Positions 747-9,979 of a stretch of 37,381 nucleotides of DNA are shown here, in pieces (position 1 is the first letter of the stretch; every line of letters begins with the position of its first letter). The position numbers and the translations under genes were made by a program. Source of the DNA: Spirochaetota bacterium (GTDB lineage: Bacteria; Spirochaetota; Spirochaetia; Treponematales; UBA12059). Where the stretch lies: contig JAHIWG010000042.1 in assembly GCA_018816345.1 (NCBI GenBank), forward strand, positions 1 through 37,381, given 5' to 3'. The notes beneath the pieces are model-generated. The model had not been told where the DNA came from and made no database searches. It saw only the letters and a list, made by a program, of their open reading frames with translations.

Positions 747-775
747 TTGACAAATATCAATCATTGCGGCATTCT
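747..775 (+). promoter_or_regulatory. Putative promoter of the Rrf2 gene
   Basis: A consensus -35 box TTGACA lies at 747-752. Seventeen bases later is CATTCT (770-775), a weak -10. Transcription would start at about 782-783, almost on the ATG at 785, so the message would be leaderless or nearly so. No Shine-Dalgarno sequence precedes 785. The inverted repeat at 764-785 covers the -10 and the start point. Confidence 0.45.
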
Positions 776-785
776 AATACCACAA
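764..785. promoter_or_regulatory. Imperfect 22-bp palindrome, candidate Rrf2 operator
   Basis: The half sites TTGCGG (764-769) and CCACAA (780-785) face each other around an AT-rich core. Eight of the eleven base pairs are symmetric (16 of 22 positions). It overlaps the -10 region and the first base of the Rrf2 start codon, the usual place for autorepression by this family. Length and an AT core suit a dimeric winged-helix Rrf2 protein. No clear second copy was found upstream of the ferredoxin gene. Confidence 0.5.
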
Positions 786-1252
786 TGCCTGTTAATGGAA
801 TAGTTCACTTATCCGACGCCGCCCTCATCGCCGTTCACGCTCTAGGCGGTCTCGCGGCCGCTCCAGGCAGGCTCGTCCAGAGCAAGGACTTGGCCGCTAT
901 CATCGACGCCAGCGAGCACCACCTGTCCAAGGTCATGCAACGCCTCGTCAGGGCGGGTATAGTCCACTCGGTCAAGGGGCCGAGCGGCGGCTTCCGGCTC
1001 GATCGCCCGGCGGACGAAATCAGTTTCAGGGACGCTATCGAGGCGGTCGACGGCCCGCTGTCGGGCGAATTCTGTCCTTTCAGGACGGATCGATGCGATC
1101 CTGACAACTGCATCTTCGGTCATGAGATCACGAAGCACGCGGTAGAGCTAGTAGCCTACTTGAGCCGTCGGACGATAGCCGATATCGCTAGGGAAGCGGC
1201 TACCCTTGAAGCGCCCGCCTACGGGGCGCCAAAGCGCCTCGATTCAGCATAG
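785..1252 (+). CDS. Rrf2-family regulator, NsrR/IscR-like with three cysteines
   Basis: This is a 155-residue winged-helix regulator of the Rrf2 family. The recognition helix region (ASEHHLSKVMQRLVRAG) is followed by the family signature GPSGGFRL. Three cysteines at C97, C104 and C109 sit where IscR and NsrR hold an Fe-S cluster, but the spacing here is C-x6-C-x4-C rather than the usual C-x5-C-x5-C. NsrR-type proteins lose their cluster on reaction with nitric oxide and then release DNA. The next two genes are a ferredoxin and hydroxylamine reductase, a classic NsrR target, so an NO-sensing role is likely by inference. A TTG seven codons upstream (764) is an alternative start. The ATG at 785 is preferred because the palindrome and promoter would otherwise lie inside the gene. 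Confidence 0.9.
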   Translation: MPVNGIVHLSDAALIAVHALGGLAAAPGRLVQSKDLAAIIDASEHHLSKVMQRLVRAGIVHSVKGPSGGFRLDRPADEISFRDAIEAVDGPLSGEFCPFRTDRCDPDNCIFGHEITKHAVELVAYLSRRTIADIAREAATLEAPAYGAPKRLDSA

Positions 1253-1348
1253 ATCAATAAACAGCAAGGCGCATGTACAGGATTATATTATTTTAGTATT
1301 TCGGTACCTATATACCCATAGGTGATGAAGACGTTTAAGGAGGACGGA
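1253..1348 (+). promoter_or_regulatory. AT-rich leader before the ferredoxin-hcp genes
   Basis: This spacer is much more AT-rich than its surroundings between about 1277 and 1320, as expected for a promoter. I could not fix a convincing -35/-10 pair. TATATA at 1309-1314 is a possible -10. A short imperfect repeat, GGTA to TACC (1303-1316), overlaps it. The spacer ends with AAGGAGG five bases before the ATG at 1349. Confidence 0.35.
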
Positions 1349-2278
1349 ATGGCGACCAGAACGGTAATAGAGATCGACGAATCCCTATGCGACGGATGCG
1401 GGCTCTGCGCTAACGGCTGTCATGAAGGCGCGTTACGAATCATAGACGGCAAGGCGCGGCTCGTCGGCGAGAGACTATGCGACGGCCTAGGCGCCTGCAT
1501 CGGCGAATGTCCCCGGGGAGCCCTACGGACCGTCGAGCGCGAAGTCGAGGCCTACGACGAGCGCAAAGTAATCGAGAACATCCTGCCCAAGGGCATGGCC
1601 ACCGTCGCCGCCCACCTCGACCACCTCCGTAGCCACGGACAAGACTCCTGGCACGCGCAAGCCTTGGCCGTCCTCGCGGAGAAAGGCCTCGCGGCTCCGG
1701 GCTCCGGGCCGGCGGCTGGAGTAAAATTCGGGGCGCTAGGCGTCGCGAGCGCGGGCTCCCCGACCCCGAGGATAGTACGGAACGGCATGTCGGGAGGATG
1801 CCCCGGATCGGCGGCCAGGTCATTCGCGCCGGCAGCGCCGGCAGCGCCCGCGCGGGAGCAGGGCATACGGCCCGCCTCCGCGCCCTCCGCGGGTAGCATG
1901 GCCTCCCGCCTGGAGCAATGGCCCATCCAACTGCACCTCGTGAACCCGCGCGCGCCGTACTTCGCCGGCGCGGACGTCCTCATCGCGGCGGACTGCACGG
2001 CGTTCGCGTGCGGGGCCTTCCACCAGTCGCTGCTCGCCGGGAAGCGCCTGGTCATCGCCTGCCCCAAGCTCGATACCGGCAAGGAGGTCTACGTCGATAA
2101 GATCAGGGCGCTCATCGACGACTCGGCCGTGGCCTCTATAACGCTGGCGATCATGGAGGTGCCCTGCTGCGGCGGTCTCAGGCGCCTCGTGGACGAAGCC
2201 GCCGCCGGCGCCTCGCGCGCCGTGCCCGTATCCACCGTCGTGGTCGGCATAGAGGGCGGAAGCCTGACTTGGATGTAG
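1349..2278 (+). CDS. Ferredoxin-domain protein with unknown C-terminal domain, hcp partner
   Basis: The start at 1349 is chosen for its AAGGAGG site five bases upstream; an in-frame GTG at 1322 lacks one. The 309-residue protein begins with a ferredoxin domain. The first cluster motif is complete: C14, C17, C20, C24. The second is C44-x5-C50-x3-C54-P, one cysteine short of the standard pattern, with the sequence CDGLGACIGECP. A linker of about 100 residues rich in Ala, Gly and Pro leads to a C-terminal domain (about 195-309) that I cannot name. It has cysteines at 216, 221, 238 and a CCGG pair at 273-274. It lies 105 bases before hcp, so it plausibly feeds electrons to Hcp in place of the NADH-dependent Hcr of enterobacteria. 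That role is an inference. Confidence 0.88.
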   Translation: MATRTVIEIDESLCDGCGLCANGCHEGALRIIDGKARLVGERLCDGLGACIGECPRGALRTVEREVEAYDERKVIENILPKGMATVAAHLDHLRSHGQDSWHAQALAVLAEKGLAAPGSGPAAGVKFGALGVASAGSPTPRIVRNGMSGGCPGSAARSFAPAAPAAPAREQGIRPASAPSAGSMASRLEQWPIQLHLVNPRAPYFAGADVLIAADCTAFACGAFHQSLLAGKRLVIACPKLDTGKEVYVDKIRALIDDSAVASITLAIMEVPCCGGLRRLVDEAAAGASRAVPVSTVVVGIEGGSLTWM

Positions 2279-2383
2279 CCCTTAGGACGTTTCGCCACGG
2301 AGCCGCGGAGGGAGACTGAGACGAGCTATTGGGGGAGAGAACGGAAACTCCTCCTGCACATCGCTTTTATTAGGGAGGTTAAC

Positions 2384-4075
2384 ATGTTCTGCTATCAATG
2401 CCAGGAAGCCATCGGGAACAAGGGCTGCGCGGCCGCCGCGGGAGCCTGCGGCAAGAAAGCCGCCACGTCGGAGCTGCAAGACCTGCTCATCCATACGCTG
2501 AAGGGCCTAGGCGCCTGGGCGGTCGAAGCCAGCGCCCTCGGCCTGCCCACGGGCGAGGCGGACGACGCCGTGACGGAAGGCCTCTTCGCCACCATCACCA
2601 ACGCCAACTTCGACGACGCGTACTTCTCCAGGTCGATCGCCGCGGCGCTGAGGCTGCGCGACTCCATGCGCGACTCGGTGAACCGCTCCCGGAGCGCGTC
2701 AGGCTCCAAGGGATGCCCGGCCTGCGGCACCGACGAGGGCGTGGCCGGGGAGAAAGCGGCGCTCCGATCCGACGCCGCTCTCTGGACCGCGGCTCCTCAG
2801 GATTACGCGTCCAAGGCCGGTTCGGTAGGCGTACTCGCCACCCTTAACGAGGACGTCCGCTCGCTCCGCGAGCTACTCATCTACGGAGCCAAGGGCATAG
2901 CCGCGTACGCCCACCACGCCGCCGTGCTCGGCAAGCGAGACGCCTCCGTATTCGCGTTCATGCACAAGGCCCTGGCCGCCACGCTCGACGACGCGCTGTC
3001 GGCCGAAGAGCTGACCGCCCTGGTGCTCGAGTGCGGCTCGGCCGGCGTCGCCGCGATGGCCCTCCTGGACGGCGCCAACACCGGAACGTACGGCAAGCCC
3101 GAGATGACCAAGGTCAACATCGGAGTCCGCGGGAACCCCGGGATCATCGTGTCCGGCCACGATCTCAGGGACCTCGAGATGCTCCTCGAGCAGACCCGGG
3201 GCACCGGCGTAGACGTGTACACCCACGGCGAGATGCTCCCCGCCCATTCCTACCCCGCGTTCAAGAAGTACGACAACTTCGTGGGCAACTACGGCAACGC
3301 CTGGTGGAAGCAGCGCGAGGAGTTCGAGAAGTTCGGCGGTCCCATCCTTATGACAACCAACTGCATCGTCCCGCCGCCCGAGTCCTACAAGGCGAGGCTG
3401 TTCACTTCCGGAGTCGCAGGATTCCCCGGATGCCCCCATATCGACGCCGACGCCGCCGGCCGCAAGGACTTCTCGGCGGTCATCGCCGCGGCGAAGAAGA
3501 GCCCCGCTCCCGTGGAGATAGAATCCGGCGCGATACTCGGCGGCTTCGCTCACGACCAGGTAGCGGCGCTGGCGGGCGACGTGGTCGCGGCCATCAAGTC
3601 CGGAGCGATACGCAAGTTCGTGGTCATGGCCGGCTGCGACGGCCGCGCCAAGGGCCGCGACTACTACGCCGACTTCGCCGCGGCCCTGCCCAAGGACGCG
3701 GTGATCCTCACCGCCGGCTGCGCCAAGTACCGCTACAACAAGCTGGATCTGGGCGACGCGGGAGGCATCCCTCGCGTCCTCGACGCCGGCCAGTGCAACG
3801 ACTCGTACTCGCTCGTCGTCACCGCGCTGCTCCTCAAGGAAGCCTTCGGGCTGGCCGACGTAAACGAGCTGCCGATAGCGTTCAACGTCGCGTGGTACGA
3901 GCAGAAGGCCGTCATCGTGCTCCTCGCGCTGCTCTCGCTCGGCTTCAAGGACATCCGCCTCGGGCCCACGCTCCCGGCCTTCCTGTCTCCGGCCGTCGCG
4001 GAGGTCCTGGTCGAGAGATTCGGGATCGCGGGCATACGCTCGGTCGAGGAGGACCTCGCGGCCATAGCGGGATAA
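2384..4075 (+). CDS. hcp: Hydroxylamine reductase (hybrid cluster protein)
   Basis: Hcp reduces hydroxylamine to ammonia and nitric oxide to N2O in the cytoplasm of anaerobes, using a 4Fe-2S-2O hybrid cluster. The 563-residue length is typical. The N-terminal cluster ligands are C3, C6, C15 and C22; the last gap is one residue longer than in Desulfovibrio. All hybrid-cluster ligands are visible: H259, E283, C327, C418 (the persulfide cysteine), C446, C471, E506 and K508. GGGAGG lies six bases before the ATG. It is co-directional with the Rrf2 and ferredoxin genes, forming a nitrosative-stress module. A large GC-rich hairpin follows the stop codon. The assignment is firm; NO as the true substrate in this organism is inferred. 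Confidence 0.97.
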
Positions 4076-4134: not shown

Positions 4135-4163
4135 TTGTAGCGGCGACCGGAGGGCGCTATACT
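4135..4163 (+). promoter_or_regulatory. Promoter of the MarR gene, leaderless
   Basis: TTGTAG (4135-4140), a 17-base spacer, then TATACT (4158-4163). Only six bases separate the -10 from the ATG at 4170, so the predicted transcript starts at or within a base or two of the A of ATG. No Shine-Dalgarno site is present. Confidence 0.7.
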
Positions 4164-4169
4164 CGAGTC

Positions 4170-4646
4170 ATGGCGATAGACAAGGACGGGGCCGGAGGGC
4201 TCGACAGGAAGACCGCCGACGAGCTCCTCTACCGTAGCCTCCGGTCCGTCTACCACTTCGAGCGGGGTCTAGTCGAGCGCTTCGGCCTCGGCTACCAGGA
4301 GATATACCTGCTCCAGCTGCTGAGGCGGCGGGAGTCTGCCCGGATAGGGGAGATAGCCTCGGCGCTCGGCGCCAAGGTATTCTCCACGACGCGCCTCGTC
4401 CAGCGGCTCGAGGTCCTCGGATACGTGGGCAAGGAACGCGACGAGGGCGACCGCCGGGGCGTCTCGGTTCGCCTGCTCCCGGCGGGCGGGCGCCTGGTCG
4501 GGGAGATAGAGGCCCATAACTTCGGGCGCATAGTGGGCGCCGCCTCGGCGCTCTCCGCCGACGAGCAGTCAGCGTTCGTCCTCGTCGCCCGGAACCTCGA
4601 CCGGGTCCTGGGCGTCGAGGACAGGGTCGACCTCGACCCGGCCTAG
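4170..4646 (+). CDS. MarR-family transcriptional regulator
   Basis: The 158-residue protein has the MarR winged-helix layout. An N-terminal dimerisation helix comes first, then a DNA-binding region (about 60-105) with RIGEIASALGAKVFSTTRLV as the helix-turn-helix. The wing carries the family motif DEGDRRGVSVRLLPAG, and a C-terminal dimerisation helix follows. MarR proteins usually repress nearby genes and respond to small phenolic or oxidant ligands. The two genes just downstream are divergently transcribed and share a perfect palindrome (5821-5837), the most likely target by position. Its stop codon shares the bases CTAG with the stop of the convergent gene. Ligand and target are inferred. 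Confidence 0.92.
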   Translation: MAIDKDGAGGLDRKTADELLYRSLRSVYHFERGLVERFGLGYQEIYLLQLLRRRESARIGEIASALGAKVFSTTRLVQRLEVLGYVGKERDEGDRRGVSVRLLPAGGRLVGEIEAHNFGRIVGAASALSADEQSAFVLVARNLDRVLGVEDRVDLDPA

Positions 4647-5761
4647 CGGTCGTACTCCCCGTACTCGCAGCCGCCTAGCTCCCCGTCGAGCGTATCCACC
4701 TCTACCCAATCGCCGCCCTTCCTCTCGAGGAGGCGCACGGTCCCGGAGGCGTACCCGCCGTTCCACAGCGCGTTATGGCGCTTCTCGCCGTCGGGGTTCT
4801 CGTAGTTGACGTTTAGCATCGTCGGCCTCGGGCAGGCGAAGCGTATCTCCGCCTTTGAGGATCCGTCCCAGGCGTCGATGTTCCATTCCACCCTGTCCTC
4901 GAGGACGGGACAATCGAAGGTCTGCCTCGAGCCCTTCCAGAACTTCGAGAAATTCCACTCGTAGAACCTACCCTCGTAGTGCAGGGCCACGAGGAGCCTG
5001 CGCGGGAGCGAGACGCCGAAGGCTACCGGCTGGGCGCCGCCTACGTCGAGGCTCGAGCGCTCGAGCAGCCGGCCCGTCTTGCGGCTCCTTAGGCAATTGC
5101 AGTTGAGCCATACCCAGGGGCTCGTATAGTCCCGGCCCCAGTTCTTATCCTGGTAACCGAACGAGGTATCGGGGTCGACGCGCCACCTCTCGCCGTTGAA
5201 CGTGATCGTCCCCCTATAGCGGGTCCTCATGCCCGCGGCGTGCCAATACATGTTGAAGGCGTCCAGCCGGCGGAAGAAGAGGCTCGTGCCCCAGCCGACC
5301 GAGTACGAGAGGATCTTCTCCGCCTCGAGGTCCCAGCTCATCTCGCCGGAGTCGGACATGTACTCAGGATGGGCCCCGGCCTCGGCCGCGCTCAGCGAGA
5401 CCGAGCCCTTGAGCCTGGTCTCCGTCGCGGTGTGGTCGCCGATACGCACGTCCATCCTGTCCCGGCTCGCGGAGAACGCCTCTACGGGATAGAGATTATG
5501 CAGCTGGGCCTTGCCTTCCGTCCCCCAGCGCCCGGCCTTTATCATCGCGTAGCTAGGCTTCCTGCCCGCGGACTTGTTCGCGGGTAGCTGGCCGGCCACG
5601 GCTTCCGGGCCGCCGAGCGCGGGGTTGACGACGTAGTACTCGATGAAATACGGCCGGCGCTCGCCGGTCTCCTCGTTCGCGGCGACGAGCGAGTGCCACC
5701 ACCAGTCGTAGCCGCGGCGGGCGCGGGCCCCGGAAAGCATGTAGCCGTTCCTATCGTCCAT
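4643..5761 (-). CDS. Lipocalin-like (tocopherol cyclase/CrtC-AttH type) protein
   Basis: This 372-residue soluble protein has no signal peptide. It is rich in Trp, Tyr and alternating polar/hydrophobic strands, as in the paired-lipocalin families that include tocopherol cyclase, carotenoid hydratase CrtC and AttH. The best marker is FGYQDKNWGRDY around W208, like the K-x-WG motif of bacterial tocopherol-cyclase-family proteins. Such proteins bind or modify hydrophobic molecules; no substrate can be named here. GGAGG precedes the ATG at 5761. It is divergent from the DUF362 gene and shares an operator-like palindrome with it. It ends on a CTAG shared with the convergent MarR gene. The family call is moderately secure and the activity is unknown. 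Confidence 0.72.
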   Translation of the reverse strand: MDDRNGYMLSGARARRGYDWWWHSLVAANEETGERRPYFIEYYVVNPALGGPEAVAGQLPANKSAGRKPSYAMIKAGRWGTEGKAQLHNLYPVEAFSASRDRMDVRIGDHTATETRLKGSVSLSAAEAGAHPEYMSDSGEMSWDLEAEKILSYSVGWGTSLFFRRLDAFNMYWHAAGMRTRYRGTITFNGERWRVDPDTSFGYQDKNWGRDYTSPWVWLNCNCLRSRKTGRLLERSSLDVGGAQPVAFGVSLPRRLLVALHYEGRFYEWNFSKFWKGSRQTFDCPVLEDRVEWNIDAWDGSSKAEIRFACPRPTMLNVNYENPDGEKRHNALWNGGYASGTVRLLERKGGDWVEVDTLDGELGGCEYGEYDR

Positions 5762-5806: not shown

Positions 5807-5835
5807 ATTATACGTTATTTATTTGCATTGTGCAA
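5807..5835 (-). promoter_or_regulatory. Promoter of the lipocalin-like gene
   Basis: On the minus strand TTGCAC (5835 to 5830) is followed after exactly 17 bases by a perfect TATAAT (5812 to 5807). It is the strongest -10 in the window. Its -35 box lies inside the palindrome at 5821-5837. Confidence 0.75.
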
Positions 5836-5837
5836 AT
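5821..5837. promoter_or_regulatory. Perfect 17-bp palindrome between divergent promoters
   Basis: ATTTGCA-TTG-TGCAAAT is a perfect 7-3-7 inverted repeat. It contains most or all of the -35 boxes of both divergent promoters, so one bound dimer would block both genes. Length and symmetry suit a MarR-family dimer, and a MarR gene is the next gene but one. Confidence 0.7.
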
Positions 5838-5856
5838 TTAATTCACGCCCTATACT
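5828..5856 (+). promoter_or_regulatory. Promoter of the DUF362 gene
   Basis: TTGTGC (5828-5833), 17 bases, TATACT (5851-5856). Transcription would start near 5863, leaving a leader of about 38 bases that includes GAGGAGGG (5888-5895) before the ATG at 5901. Confidence 0.65.
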
Positions 5857-5900: not shown

Positions 5901-7964
5901 ATGCCGACGGTTACCGTGGAACGATTACCCGCGATCGAGAACCCGGAGCTCCGGAAGGACGCGGAGGGACTCGTCGATACGGGCTACACCGAGGGCTGCG
6001 CCGCGCTGCCGCGCGACTACGGAGGCGCCGCCTGGGAAGCCAGGCCGGAGGTAGCGGCGATCCGCGCCGCCGTGTTCTCCGCGCTGGACCGGCTGGAGGC
6101 GGAGACGGGCATATCGTCGCGCCTCGCCGGCCGGCCGGCCCTCGTCAAGCCGAACCTGGTGACCGTCTACCACGACATGGGCCTCAAGAGGCGGTCGTAT
6201 CCCGAGACGACCGACCCGCGCGTCCTCGACGCGACCGTGCTATGGCTGCAGCGCTACGCCTCTACGATACGGATAGCGGAATCGTCGGGGAGGGGGGCCC
6301 CTACCCGCGGTTCCTTCAAGGTCGCGGGCGTGGATAGGCTCGCCGCGCTACGCGGCTGCGAGCTCGTCGCGCTCGAGGAGACGCCGGTGGACAGGTACAT
6401 CCTGCCCAAGGCTACCGTCCAGCGCGAGATCCTGGTGCCGAGGCCTTTCTCGGCCGTGGTAAGGGGAGAGGCGTCGTACGTCTCGGTGCCCAAGCTCAAG
6501 ACCAACCTGTATACCGGGGTTACGCTCGGCTTCAAGAACGCCATGGGGGTCATACCGTACAACCTCAGGCAGCGCGGCCACCATTACGCCATAAACCGCA
6601 AGCTCGTGGAGATGCTCTACCTCTTCAAGCCCGACCTAGTACTCATAGACGGCGTCGTAGGCGCGGAGGGCGAGTGCCCCGCGCCGGTCGACCCGGTGGA
6701 TTCCCGCATGATCATCGCGGGCGACCACCCCGTGGAGACCGACCGCGTCGCGACGGGCCTCATGGGGTTCGACCCTTCGACGATAGAGCTGATGCGCGTC
6801 GCCGACGAGCTGGGCTTCGGCGAGCCCGCCGGCGCCCGCGTGCTCTATCGCGGCTTCGGGCCCGGAGACGCGGGCGGGGCCGCCGGGGCCGCCGGGGCGG
6901 GCGGAACGAAGCCGCCGGCGTTCAGGCCGGCCGACTGGTCGCTCCTCTCCGACCGCGTCAGGGGCGCGTTCCCCGGAATCCTCGTCCTCATGGGCATCAA
7001 CCGCGGCGGCCTCGTAGCGACGGGCGGTCCCGAGATAGCGCGCGAGATGGAGGCCTCGTGCCGGGGCGGTTGCGTGGCGACGACGCGCTTCGCGTTCTCC
7101 ATGCTCGAGGCCGAGGGCGCCGTCCCGAGGCGGCCGGTCGCGCTCGTCATAGGCGCCGGCCTCGAGCGCGACGGGAAGCGGTACTGGTACGACGCCGCGG
7201 GCAAGGCCTACGACGAGGAGGCGATCCGCACGCTAAGGATGAAGAAGGCCGTCATAGGCTCGTGCACCAGGACCCTGGCGCCGCTCGCCGACCGCTTCGT
7301 CGACGGCTGCATGGTCATGCCCAACGGCCCGCACATGGTGCTCCACGAGCTCATAGGGGTCCCATGCTCCGTGATGTCGCTCAAGAACAAGAACCTCCTC
7401 CCCATGCTGCTCGCCACGCTCGGGGCGCGGTCGGCGAGGCGCCGGCTCATCAAGGGAGGCCAGCGCCTGGACGTGGCGCTACGCCTGGACGACCGCCCGG
7501 AGGAGACGCGCGCGCTCGGCGCGGACGAGGAAACCCGGGACTGGGTCGAGTGGCCGATGCCGCCCATCGGCGAGGCGGAGGCCGCGCGGCTCCTGGACTT
7601 CGAGGACGACGCGGCCCTCGCGGCCTTCAGGGGCATACTCGTCTTCCGCGTCAAGGAGCGTGCGCTCTGGCGCGTAAAAGCCGCCGTCGCGACCCTCGTG
7701 ACACTCGGGCCGCCGGCCCTGGCGATAGCGTCGGCCGCGAGGGGCGCGCCGGTCGGCCTTGGCTCAGGCGCATGGCTCGCCGTCTTCGCCGCCGTCGAGG
7801 CGCTGCACCTCGCAGAGATACCCTCGGCGCTCAAGGCCCGTAAGCAGGAGGCCCGGAGGAGGGGGATCCCGTGGAGCGGCTCCCGGGCCGCGCGGGCCGT
7901 CGCCGCGACGCTCTGCTGCGGCTACCCTAGCTGGGTGCCGAGGAAGCTCGGGGTCTTCGACTAG
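5901..7964 (+). CDS. DUF362 protein with C-terminal membrane segments
   Basis: The ATG at 5901 is chosen for the GAGGAGGG site five bases upstream. The 687-residue protein starts with a DUF362 domain (about 80-310). Its marks are VKPNLV, the AESSGRG loop, PKLKTN followed by GFKNAMGVIP, and LIDGVVGAEG. A low-complexity Gly/Ala stretch (about 322-338) leads to a second module (about 340-560) with several cysteines and the phrases GINRGGLVATGG and MVMPNGPHMVLHELIG. Two hydrophobic segments (about 595-640) follow, and the protein ends CCGYPSWVPRKLG. There is no Fe-S ferredoxin motif of the kind often fused to DUF362. The function of DUF362 is not established. It is divergent from the lipocalin-like gene and probably coregulated with it. 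Confidence 0.83.
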   Translation: MPTVTVERLPAIENPELRKDAEGLVDTGYTEGCAALPRDYGGAAWEARPEVAAIRAAVFSALDRLEAETGISSRLAGRPALVKPNLVTVYHDMGLKRRSYPETTDPRVLDATVLWLQRYASTIRIAESSGRGAPTRGSFKVAGVDRLAALRGCELVALEETPVDRYILPKATVQREILVPRPFSAVVRGEASYVSVPKLKTNLYTGVTLGFKNAMGVIPYNLRQRGHHYAINRKLVEMLYLFKPDLVLIDGVVGAEGECPAPVDPVDSRMIIAGDHPVETDRVATGLMGFDPSTIELMRVADELGFGEPAGARVLYRGFGPGDAGGAAGAAGAGGTKPPAFRPADWSLLSDRVRGAFPGILVLMGINRGGLVATGGPEIAREMEASCRGGCVATTRFAFSMLEAEGAVPRRPVALVIGAGLERDGKRYWYDAAGKAYDEEAIRTLRMKKAVIGSCTRTLAPLADRFVDGCMVMPNGPHMVLHELIGVPCSVMSLKNKNLLPMLLATLGARSARRRLIKGGQRLDVALRLDDRPEETRALGADEETRDWVEWPMPPIGEAEAARLLDFEDDAALAAFRGILVFRVKERALWRVKAAVATLVTLGPPALAIASAARGAPVGLGSGAWLAVFAAVEALHLAEIPSALKARKQEARRRGIPWSGSRAARAVAATLCCGYPSWVPRKLGVFD

Positions 7965-8032: not shown

Positions 8033-9979
8033 ATGAGCAAGCATCACGGTATAGGCATCGAGGGACGATCTCGTCGGGGATCACGGCATCTTGGGAGTAC
8101 GGCCGCCGCGGGGCCGTTCGGATTCGATTGGAAGAAAGCGCGGCTGGACATCGAGACGGAGACCCGGAGATACCAGAAGAGCGCCGCGATTTTCGCGTAC
8201 CTGATAGGCGCGCTCTTCCCTATCGCGTTCCTGGTCGACGACCTCCTAAGCGGAAGGCCCCCGGCCTACGCTAATTACATCGTACCCCTGGTAGCGCTCA
8301 TAGGCATCGCCCTCTGGCAGAGGGCGTCGAATTCCAGACGGCCGATGCAGATCGCCGTCGTCGGTAGCCTGATCCTCGGCTTCCTCCTCACGCTTTTCTT
8401 ACCCTTCTCGAGGAACGCGTACATAGTCATCTACTTCTGCTTCCCCTCGCTTACGCTCCTCGTGCTCGGCCCCGGGCGAGGCTTGGCGGCGAGCGCCGCG
8501 TTCTTCCTCCTGGCGACAGCGCTCGGCGTTCTGTACCTCAGAGGGTACGTAACGGGAACGGCCTCTCCGTTCAACTCGTCGATGTTCGCCATGGCGTCGG
8601 TCGCGTTCGCGTTCCAATGCACCATGGGGGTAGTAAGCGAATGGAGGCACGCGAGGAACGTCGACCGCCTCGTGGAGCGCCGATTCTTCGACCCGGAGAC
8701 CCTCCTGCCTAACTCGAGCGCGTTCTCGATGGAACGCCTCGTCGCGGGAGAATCCCTCGTCCTCGTTCACTTCGCAAACCTCCGCGACCTCAGGGCGATC
8801 GCTGGCCGCGAGGAGGTCGGGACGCTATCTTCGAAGGCCGCGCTCGGGCTCCTCGAGAGCAGGAGCGCGTCGATAGGCCGCAGGGGGCCCTTCCGCGTCT
8901 CGGACACCGACTTCTGCTTCGTCTTCCCCGCCGGCGACTCGGTCTCCGAGGAGGCTGACGCCATCCACGCCGATTTCTCCGAGCTTCCCGCCGTCAAGGG
9001 CAGTCCGCTCCGCTTCGTGACCCGTATCGCCTCCTTCCGGGTAGAGACCGAGACGAGCGCCCCCGAGGCCCTCGACGAGACGGTCGCGGCCCTTTCCGAC
9101 TGCATAGCCGGGAGGGCCGCGAGCCTCCATCGCTGCGAGTCCGCCATCGCCAACGACAAGGACGCGCTCCGAAGCCGCGCGCCCAACCTCCTTCGCAATA
9201 TAGAGCGGGGACTCTTCATGCCGGTATTCCAACCGGTCTACGACCTGGAGCGCGACGGCATCGGCTTCCTCGAGGCGCTGATCCGCCTGGACGAGGGCGG
9301 TTCGTCCGCCTCTCCCGAGCGCTACCTGGACGCGGCCTTCAGGCTCGGCCTCGACCGTTACCTTACCGAGTTCATACTGGAGAGGGCCCTCGGCATGGCG
9401 CTCGAGAGCGGGCACTCGGTCAGCTTCAACGCGACCTTCCGGGATATCGTCAGGCCGGCCTTCCGCGCCGGGCTGGCAGGCGCGTACGGGGCGCTCTCGG
9501 GCCGGGACAATACCATCATAGTCGAGATTACGGAGCAGGCCGCGGTCGAGGACACGTCTATCCTGAAGGAGTTCGTCGGAGAGGTGCACGGGCTCGGGGG
9601 GCTCGTATTCCTAGACGACTTCGGATCGGGCTATTCCAACTACTCAAGGCTGCTCGAGAGCAGCTTCGACGCGGTAAAGGCCGCGGGAGAGATCGTCAGG
9701 GAGATAGAGGCCCGTCCCGAGGCCTATACACTCTACCGCGGGATGGCAGCGTTCTGCGCGGAAGCCGGGCTCTCGGTCGTAGCGGAGCATATCTCGGGAA
9801 GCGGGATCATGCAGCGCGCCATCTCCGGCGGGGCCCGCTACCTGCAAGGCTACCTCCTCTCGCCGCCCCTATCCGCCGGCGCCGTACTGGAGAACGACTT
9901 CGCCTTCCCGGGAGGGCTGTCGACGGCTTCCAAGCCGCTCGGCGCCGGGAGACCCGCCTTAGGCGCCGTCGGTCAGTGA
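8033..9979 (+). CDS. Membrane EAL-domain protein with degenerate GGDEF and altered EAL site
   Basis: The 648-residue protein has about six hydrophobic segments (50-205), then a region in the position of a GGDEF domain without the GGDEF signature, then an EAL domain (about 395-630). EAL proteins hydrolyse cyclic-di-GMP. Present are E414 (LEAL), the Asn of FNAT, EITE, D528-D529 (DDFGSGYS), K549, E585 and QGY. Two conserved positions differ: the AEGVE motif reads AEHIS (the second Glu is S588), and LKID reads VKAA (A551 replaces Asp). Activity may therefore be weak or lost, making this a possible c-di-GMP receptor. It stands alone on a leaderless promoter between DUF362 and a small exported protein. 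Confidence 0.9.
   Translation: MSKHHGIGIEGRSRRGSRHLGSTAAAGPFGFDWKKARLDIETETRRYQKSAAIFAYLIGALFPIAFLVDDLLSGRPPAYANYIVPLVALIGIALWQRASNSRRPMQIAVVGSLILGFLLTLFLPFSRNAYIVIYFCFPSLTLLVLGPGRGLAASAAFFLLATALGVLYLRGYVTGTASPFNSSMFAMASVAFAFQCTMGVVSEWRHARNVDRLVERRFFDPETLLPNSSAFSMERLVAGESLVLVHFANLRDLRAIAGREEVGTLSSKAALGLLESRSASIGRRGPFRVSDTDFCFVFPAGDSVSEEADAIHADFSELPAVKGSPLRFVTRIASFRVETETSAPEALDETVAALSDCIAGRAASLHRCESAIANDKDALRSRAPNLLRNIERGLFMPVFQPVYDLERDGIGFLEALIRLDEGGSSASPERYLDAAFRLGLDRYLTEFILERALGMALESGHSVSFNATFRDIVRPAFRAGLAGAYGALSGRDNTIIVEITEQAAVEDTSILKEFVGEVHGLGGLVFLDDFGSGYSNYSRLLESSFDAVKAAGEIVREIEARPEAYTLYRGMAAFCAEAGLSVVAEHISGSGIMQRAISGGARYLQGYLLSPPLSAGAVLENDFAFPGGLSTASKPLGAGRPALGAVGQ

Follow-up and report, generated by a model that had tools for sequence, protein, structure and literature searches.

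A conserved palindrome as candidate operator of a MarR regulator between divergent CrtC-like and DUF362 genes in a Spirochaetota bacterium

A single perfect palindrome lies between the divergently transcribed genes of a CrtC-superfamily protein (the gene is called lip here) and a DUF362 protein in the window, the whole stretch of 37,381 nucleotides of a Spirochaetota bacterium that was analysed. Comparison with related loci makes it quite probable that this palindrome is the operator of the MarR-family regulator encoded next door, through which both genes of a putative module for the anaerobic handling of a hydrophobic compound would be co-repressed. The regulation appears to be of a known kind, that of a MarR local repressor, and is well supported, and the gene set appears undescribed. 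In the open-access literature, no paper linking DUF362 with the aldehyde:ferredoxin oxidoreductase (AOR) family was found, the combination of AOR, DUF362 and CrtC-like proteins was absent from what was searched, and a search for tocopherol cyclase together with MarR returned nothing relevant. The features are collected in Table 1.

Table 1. Coordinates of the features discussed (positions in the window unless a locus is named)
Feature	Position	Strand	Remarks
Leaderless marR promoter	4135-4163	+	-35 TTGTAG 4135-4140, 17 nt, -10 TATACT 4158-4163; ATG 4170
MarR-family regulator, 158 aa	4170-4646	+	PF01047, 37.1 bits
CrtC-superfamily protein, 372 aa (Pfam Tocopherol_cycl, PF14249)	4643-5761	-	predicted double beta-barrel; invariant D205, W216, W218
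lip promoter	5807-5835	-	-35 TTGCAC 5835-5830, 17 nt, -10 TATAAT 5812-5807
Palindrome ATTTGCA-TTG-TGCAAAT (candidate operator)	5821-5837		unique in genome; position and spacing kept in 14 relatives from two phyla
Conserved core of the palindrome, TTGCAnnnTGCAA	5823-5835		
DUF362 gene promoter	5828-5856	+	-10 TATACT 5851-5856, 15 nt from the core; -35 inside the palindrome
DUF362 protein, 687 aa	5901-7964	+	DUF362 domain residues 81-285; C387, C391, C455, C470; C-terminal membrane helices
Four-cysteine stretch (CxGGC ... C ... GC)	7059-7310	+	14 homologs; probable Fe-S ligands
C-terminal membrane-helix region of the DUF362 protein	7623-7961	+	separate ~90-aa gene in Anaerolineaceae (26% identity, E 5e-5)
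AOR ortholog of the window's genome	L136:5361-8301 (G000, contig C5)		44-48% identical; divergent TetR-type gene

The palindrome, its conservation and its promoters

The palindrome was already named in the original prediction and was recovered exactly, as a 17-bp inverted repeat with 7-bp arms and a 3-nt spacer. This falls within the 16-20-bp inverted repeats at the regulator's own locus that are taken as MarR-type operators, and the repeat is co-inherited with a MarR gene. Dinucleotide shuffles of the window gave a mean of 0.00-0.01 matches to the palindrome, and an assembly search found the exact core only once in the whole 3,798,874-bp genome; the exact site is also single in the genomes of four relatives (G409 and G411-G413). 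A chance origin was rejected, as shuffling practically never yields a match, the genome holds one copy and the site is conserved together with MarR. With one exact site per genome, MarR appears to be dedicated to local regulation in these four relatives as in the window's genome.

Relatives of lip were gathered from 84,980 genomes, giving 80 loci that were then searched with the MarR and DUF362 proteins of the window. The MarR/lip pair was found in Spirochaetota (L018-L021, L023-L025) and in Anaerolineaceae of the Chloroflexi (L026-L028, L031, L034), and DUF362 adjoins it in every one of these loci except L024. The original prediction had staked itself on conservation of the palindrome, which is present upstream of lip in 14 relatives (L018-L031) belonging to Spirochaetota or Anaerolineaceae. 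Among 15 aligned sequences the half-sites TTGCA/TGCAA are near-invariant (1.6-2.0 bits, vs mostly 0.1-0.6 in the outer flanks), and the arms extend to 9-11 bp in the spirochaete relatives L019, L020 and L022. In Chloroflexi, L028-L031 carry an extra half-site-like motif (e.g. CTTGCAATATGATATTTG) ~25 nt upstream of the palindrome, which is perhaps a second, degenerate MarR site.

The lip product of the window is 58-69% (mostly 66-69%) identical to the Anaerolineaceae copies and ~46-50% to those of rumen Treponema relatives. Identity that is higher across phyla than to these relatives suggests that lip has spread horizontally, and such transfer probably connects the copies of Spirochaetota with those of Anaerolineaceae, so that they are incompletely independent as evidence for the operator.

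The promoter layout in the window and its relatives supports the claim that one palindrome spans both divergent promoters. It had further been proposed that both -35 boxes lie in the palindrome, each 17 nt from its -10 box; this is correct for the window, and on the lip side it extends to the aligned relatives, in which TTGCAn is kept ~17 nt from the -10 box and the spacing between this box and the core is near-constant at ~10 nt (15 sequences). On the DUF362 side, 15 nt separate the core from a TATACT or TATAAT box in the window and in L018-L022, against 16 nt in L023; the spacing differs in L025, and the divergent partner is absent from L024. The candidate -35 on this side is TTGTGC (5828-5833) at 17 nt from the -10, or an alternative at 16 nt. 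Since the hexamer at 17 nt is conserved in relatives only as NNNTGC, TTGTGC is uncertain as the -35 of the DUF362 gene; a TTTGCA-type box at 16 nt could serve just as well.

Association of the palindrome with MarR

The regulator shows a PF01047 match well above the cut-off of 24.6 bits and thus has the winged-helix domain of MarR proteins, in which F71, R75, L80 and, within the wing, D94 and R96 do not vary between the two phyla at an overall identity of 32-39%. Its gene is convergent with lip and overlaps the end of lip by 4 nt. The palindrome is present at every one of the 12 loci to which a MarR ortholog is linked and at 1 of the 65 remaining lip loci, most of them from Bacillota and Actinomycetota, which bears out the pairing of palindrome and neighbouring MarR put forward at the outset. 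The single match among the 65 (L071) is probably due to chance, as a linked MarR is absent there. Three further loci (L022, L029, L030) have the palindrome with no visible MarR, their sequence ending before the expected position of the regulator. MarR and lip are jointly present or jointly absent across eight genomes of the genus. In one genus member (G019, contig C258, L015/L017) there is a second, broken lip copy with an intact MarR, or else assembly redundancy.

In Anaerolineaceae the palindrome, with at most one mismatch, also occurs at the promoter of marR itself (L026-L028, L031, L034). The core lies directly downstream of the -10 box in L026 and L027 (TATAATAGTTGCATAACGCAA) and abuts it in L028 and L031, and in L034 two cores lie on either side of the -10 ahead of a MarR-DUF362-lip operon. 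A core at such places, where a -35 is impossible, points to an operator and not to a promoter element, and the travel of the palindrome with MarR to these positions is the strongest evidence for a putative MarR operator. It is very improbable that the palindrome is kept only because TTGCA, read on either strand, gives the divergent promoters a pair of overlapping -35 boxes, with no repressor needed; TTGCAn at the -35 distance of 17 nt on the lip side of relatives agrees with that explanation, but Anaerolineaceae keep the second half-site though no divergent promoter is seen there, and a -35 element would not follow one regulator gene. A -35 artefact was rejected on the location of the palindrome at the Anaerolineaceae MarR promoters.

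The palindrome could also be bound by another regulator, global or encoded elsewhere, with MarR as a bystander. The convergent orientation of marR, its own Spirochaetota promoter devoid of the palindrome and the 15 MarR-family matches in the genome speak for this, yet the palindrome accompanies one MarR subfamily in two phyla and reaches its Anaerolineaceae promoter, and it is missing from L065, where a TetR gene takes the place of MarR beside lip, DUF362 and AOR genes. A global regulator is disfavoured, since most of the spirochaete genomes examined hold the site in one copy, and arms of 7 bp around a 3-nt spacer are normal MarR geometry (compare ACTATG-N3-CATAGT of AesR, PMC13413800), leaving the bystander explanation unlikely. 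The palindrome is therefore taken for an operator, most likely that of the neighbouring MarR.

AesR of C. glutamicum is the closest parallel in layout, with a perfect inverted repeat of 6-7-bp arms and a 3-nt spacer overlapping divergent promoters (PMC13413800), and the regulator is encoded next door in AesR-type MarR local repressors as in the window. Unlike in these systems, the MarR of the window is convergent with one target and divergent from neither, and its leaderless promoter in Spirochaetota lacks the operator. CrtR of C. glutamicum (PMC6739363) similarly exemplifies MarR-type control of a gene set tied to isoprenoid chemistry, whereas its 52-bp footprint is centred on TTAA and its targets are crt biosynthetic genes, compared with the TTGCAnnnTGCAA site and other enzymes here.

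The leaderless marR promoter that had been proposed is real in outline. Its -10 box ends 6 nt before the ATG in the window, and L018-L021 retain a TATA[C/T]T that ends ~6-8 nt ahead of the MarR start codon, although the sequence around it differs. No copy of the palindrome was found at the marR promoter in the window's genome or in Spirochaetota relatives, and for this reason constitutive low-level expression of MarR is probable in Spirochaetota.

We infer binding, repression and induction by MarR as follows. A MarR dimer on the palindrome would mask the -35 region of each divergent promoter and repress lip and the DUF362 gene together, until a small molecule frees MarR from the DNA and both genes are switched on; in Anaerolineaceae, MarR would also be autoregulated via the same operator.

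The CrtC-like and DUF362 proteins

The lip product had been described as lipocalin-like, with a hydrophobic-ligand-binding fold. Its fold and its invariant Asp and WxW residues make an enzyme of the CrtC/kievitone hydratase superfamily the better reading. The AlphaFold model (pLDDT 93.4) predicts the double lipocalin-like beta-barrel that marks the CrtC-fold superfamily, and no signal peptide was seen in the sequence. The 13 best Foldseek matches are all CrtC-fold (E 2.5e-9 to 1.3e-6, probability 1.00), and the nearest solved structures are Fsa2, kievitone hydratase, other decalin pericyclases, CghA and 25-phosphosteroid lyase. Enzymes of this fold that have been characterised share just ~8-14% identity with the lip product, with TM-scores of 0.43-0.51.

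The residues D205, W216 and W218 are invariant in 39 homologs. A profile aligns D205 and W216-x-W218 with the YDRQWG...NWTWF segment of kievitone hydratase 7a0q at an E of 0.18, non-significant alone, and the Asp segment aligns with 25-phosphosteroid lyase, also at a non-significant sequence score. The Asp and WxW correspond to D268, W283 and W285 of RgCrtC, which are essential by mutation (PMC12402844). Because of the CrtC fold and this correspondence, the protein is more likely a substrate-protonating or carbocation-stabilising enzyme than a passive lipid carrier, and it would act as a cofactor-free hydratase, lyase or cyclase using the catalytic Asp and Trp residues. Kievitone hydratase (7a0q/7a0t) and the carotenoid 1,2-hydratase CrtC combine a double lipocalin-like barrel with a catalytic-acid Asp followed by W-x-W, the arrangement predicted for the lip product; identity to kievitone hydratase is ~11-12% over the fold, and hydration by the CrtC-like protein is predicted at most. 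The 25-phosphosteroid lyase (9fzn, 9g4c) shares the fold at a TM-score of ~0.5 with an aligned D-[RK]-x-W-G segment and belongs to anaerobic sterol degradation, where anaerobes apply it to isoprenoid side chains. Unlike in that setting, neither a steroid kinase nor an S25DH gene was recognised near the window locus.

An enzyme of genuine tocopherol cyclase type, or a carotenoid hydratase with a part in making lipids or pigments, would share the fold superfamily and fit the Tocopherol_cycl score of 39.9 bits, which is above the cut-off. However, this match covers only 141 residues (profile positions 144-260 of 335), and the neighbours encode enzymes of redox and xenobiotic type (AOR, old yellow enzyme (OYE), SDR and 3beta-HSD-like proteins), not prenyl-quinone or carotenoid functions. 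The host bacteria are anaerobic fermenters in which no tocopherol pathway is known. Such a biosynthetic role is therefore decidedly improbable, and an enzyme of the wider CrtC/kievitone hydratase superfamily is preferred.

The DUF362 protein, whose start was placed by homologs opening with MATVT-, scores 106.1 bits against PF04015 (cut-off 24). It had been taken for an unknown membrane protein; four invariant cysteines allow the sharper reading of a redox protein. C387, C391, C455 and C470 are invariant in 14 homologs, as expected of cysteine ligands in an Fe-S protein, and it is from these residues that a probable Fe-S cluster is proposed. Anchored in the membrane, the protein would act as an Fe-S component of electron transfer or of a reductase. 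Its structure model reaches middling confidence (pLDDT 78), and a structure search with it gave no meaningful PDB match. DUF362 and the lactate racemase LarA belong to a common Pfam clan, CL0471 (PMC11770544).

The wider module and its significance

Divergence of lip from the DUF362 gene holds for the window as originally described, but DUF362 is not the sole partner. In L023, the palindrome separates lip from an AOR-DUF362 operon, with the AOR-family gene in the divergent position; in Anaerolineaceae the operon reads MarR-AOR-polyferredoxin-DUF362-membrane protein with lip nearby; L065 has the order TetR-lip-DUF362-AOR; and L024 has no divergent partner. Both AFOR Pfam domains are present in the AOR of the module, which belongs to the aldehyde:ferredoxin oxidoreductase family. 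An AOR-family tungsten/molybdenum enzyme and a polyferredoxin would thus join DUF362 in some lineages. Known AOR tungsten/molybdenum oxidoreductases with polyferredoxin resemble the Anaerolineaceae version, in which AOR is adjacent to a 4x[4Fe-4S]-type ferredoxin; unlike in known AOR systems, the AOR of the module associates with DUF362 and a CrtC-like protein, and the window locus is devoid of AOR. The AOR ortholog elsewhere in the window's genome was rejected as part of this regulon, since it is unlinked, no operator was found at its locus, and AOR is missing from the window locus.

In 12 Clostridia-type loci (L057, L059, L069, L071, L076, L077, L079, L081, L086-L088, L091), lip is directly followed by an SDR gene and a gene for a ~690-aa old yellow enzyme, forming a second conserved context; these old yellow enzymes are 62-92% identical to that of L079. 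Steroid 5beta-reductases occur among gut old yellow enzymes (PMC12238238). These partners are reductive and anaerobic, as is typical where lipophilic compounds or xenobiotics are processed. An EAL-domain (c-di-GMP phosphodiesterase-like) membrane protein is encoded at 8033-9979, downstream of the DUF362 gene, with synteny in L018 only among the loci fetched.

Directly upstream of marR, at 764-4075, lie genes for an Rrf2-family regulator, a ferredoxin-like protein and a hybrid-cluster protein (Hcp, hydroxylamine reductase). L018-L020 share this arrangement, and in Paenibacillus (L038, L039) lip likewise follows an Hcp gene, as would fit a module for nitrosative or oxidative stress response; in L021-L034, by contrast, Hcp and Rrf2 do not adjoin the module, and they carry no operator, making a stress response improbable. 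Hcp and Rrf2 were not accepted as module members, their adjacency being confined to close relatives, and remain a lead.

The preferred reading is that of a MarR-controlled module which would transform or detoxify a hydrophobic compound anaerobically. The substrate class can only be guessed at: a prenylated phenol, terpenoid, steroid or quinone. More tentatively, and with considerable doubt, the module may be a horizontally spread, MarR-switched pathway of Spirochaetota, Anaerolineae and Clostridia, in which a cofactor-free CrtC-type hydratase or lyase is combined with low-potential electron transfer (the DUF362 Fe-S membrane protein, and AOR with polyferredoxin in some lineages) on a hydrophobic plant or host compound.

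A single-copy operator kept across phyla delimits a small, self-contained regulon of uncharacterised proteins, in which a CrtC-fold enzyme is coupled with a DUF362 redox protein and, at other loci, with AOR. What a MarR protein senses is often the substrate of the controlled enzymes or a compound related to it, so the ligand of this MarR would be a direct route to the function of this DUF362 subfamily and of the widespread anaerobic CrtC-like family. If the reading as a horizontally spread pathway is true, DUF362 proteins of this type would gain their first biochemical role.
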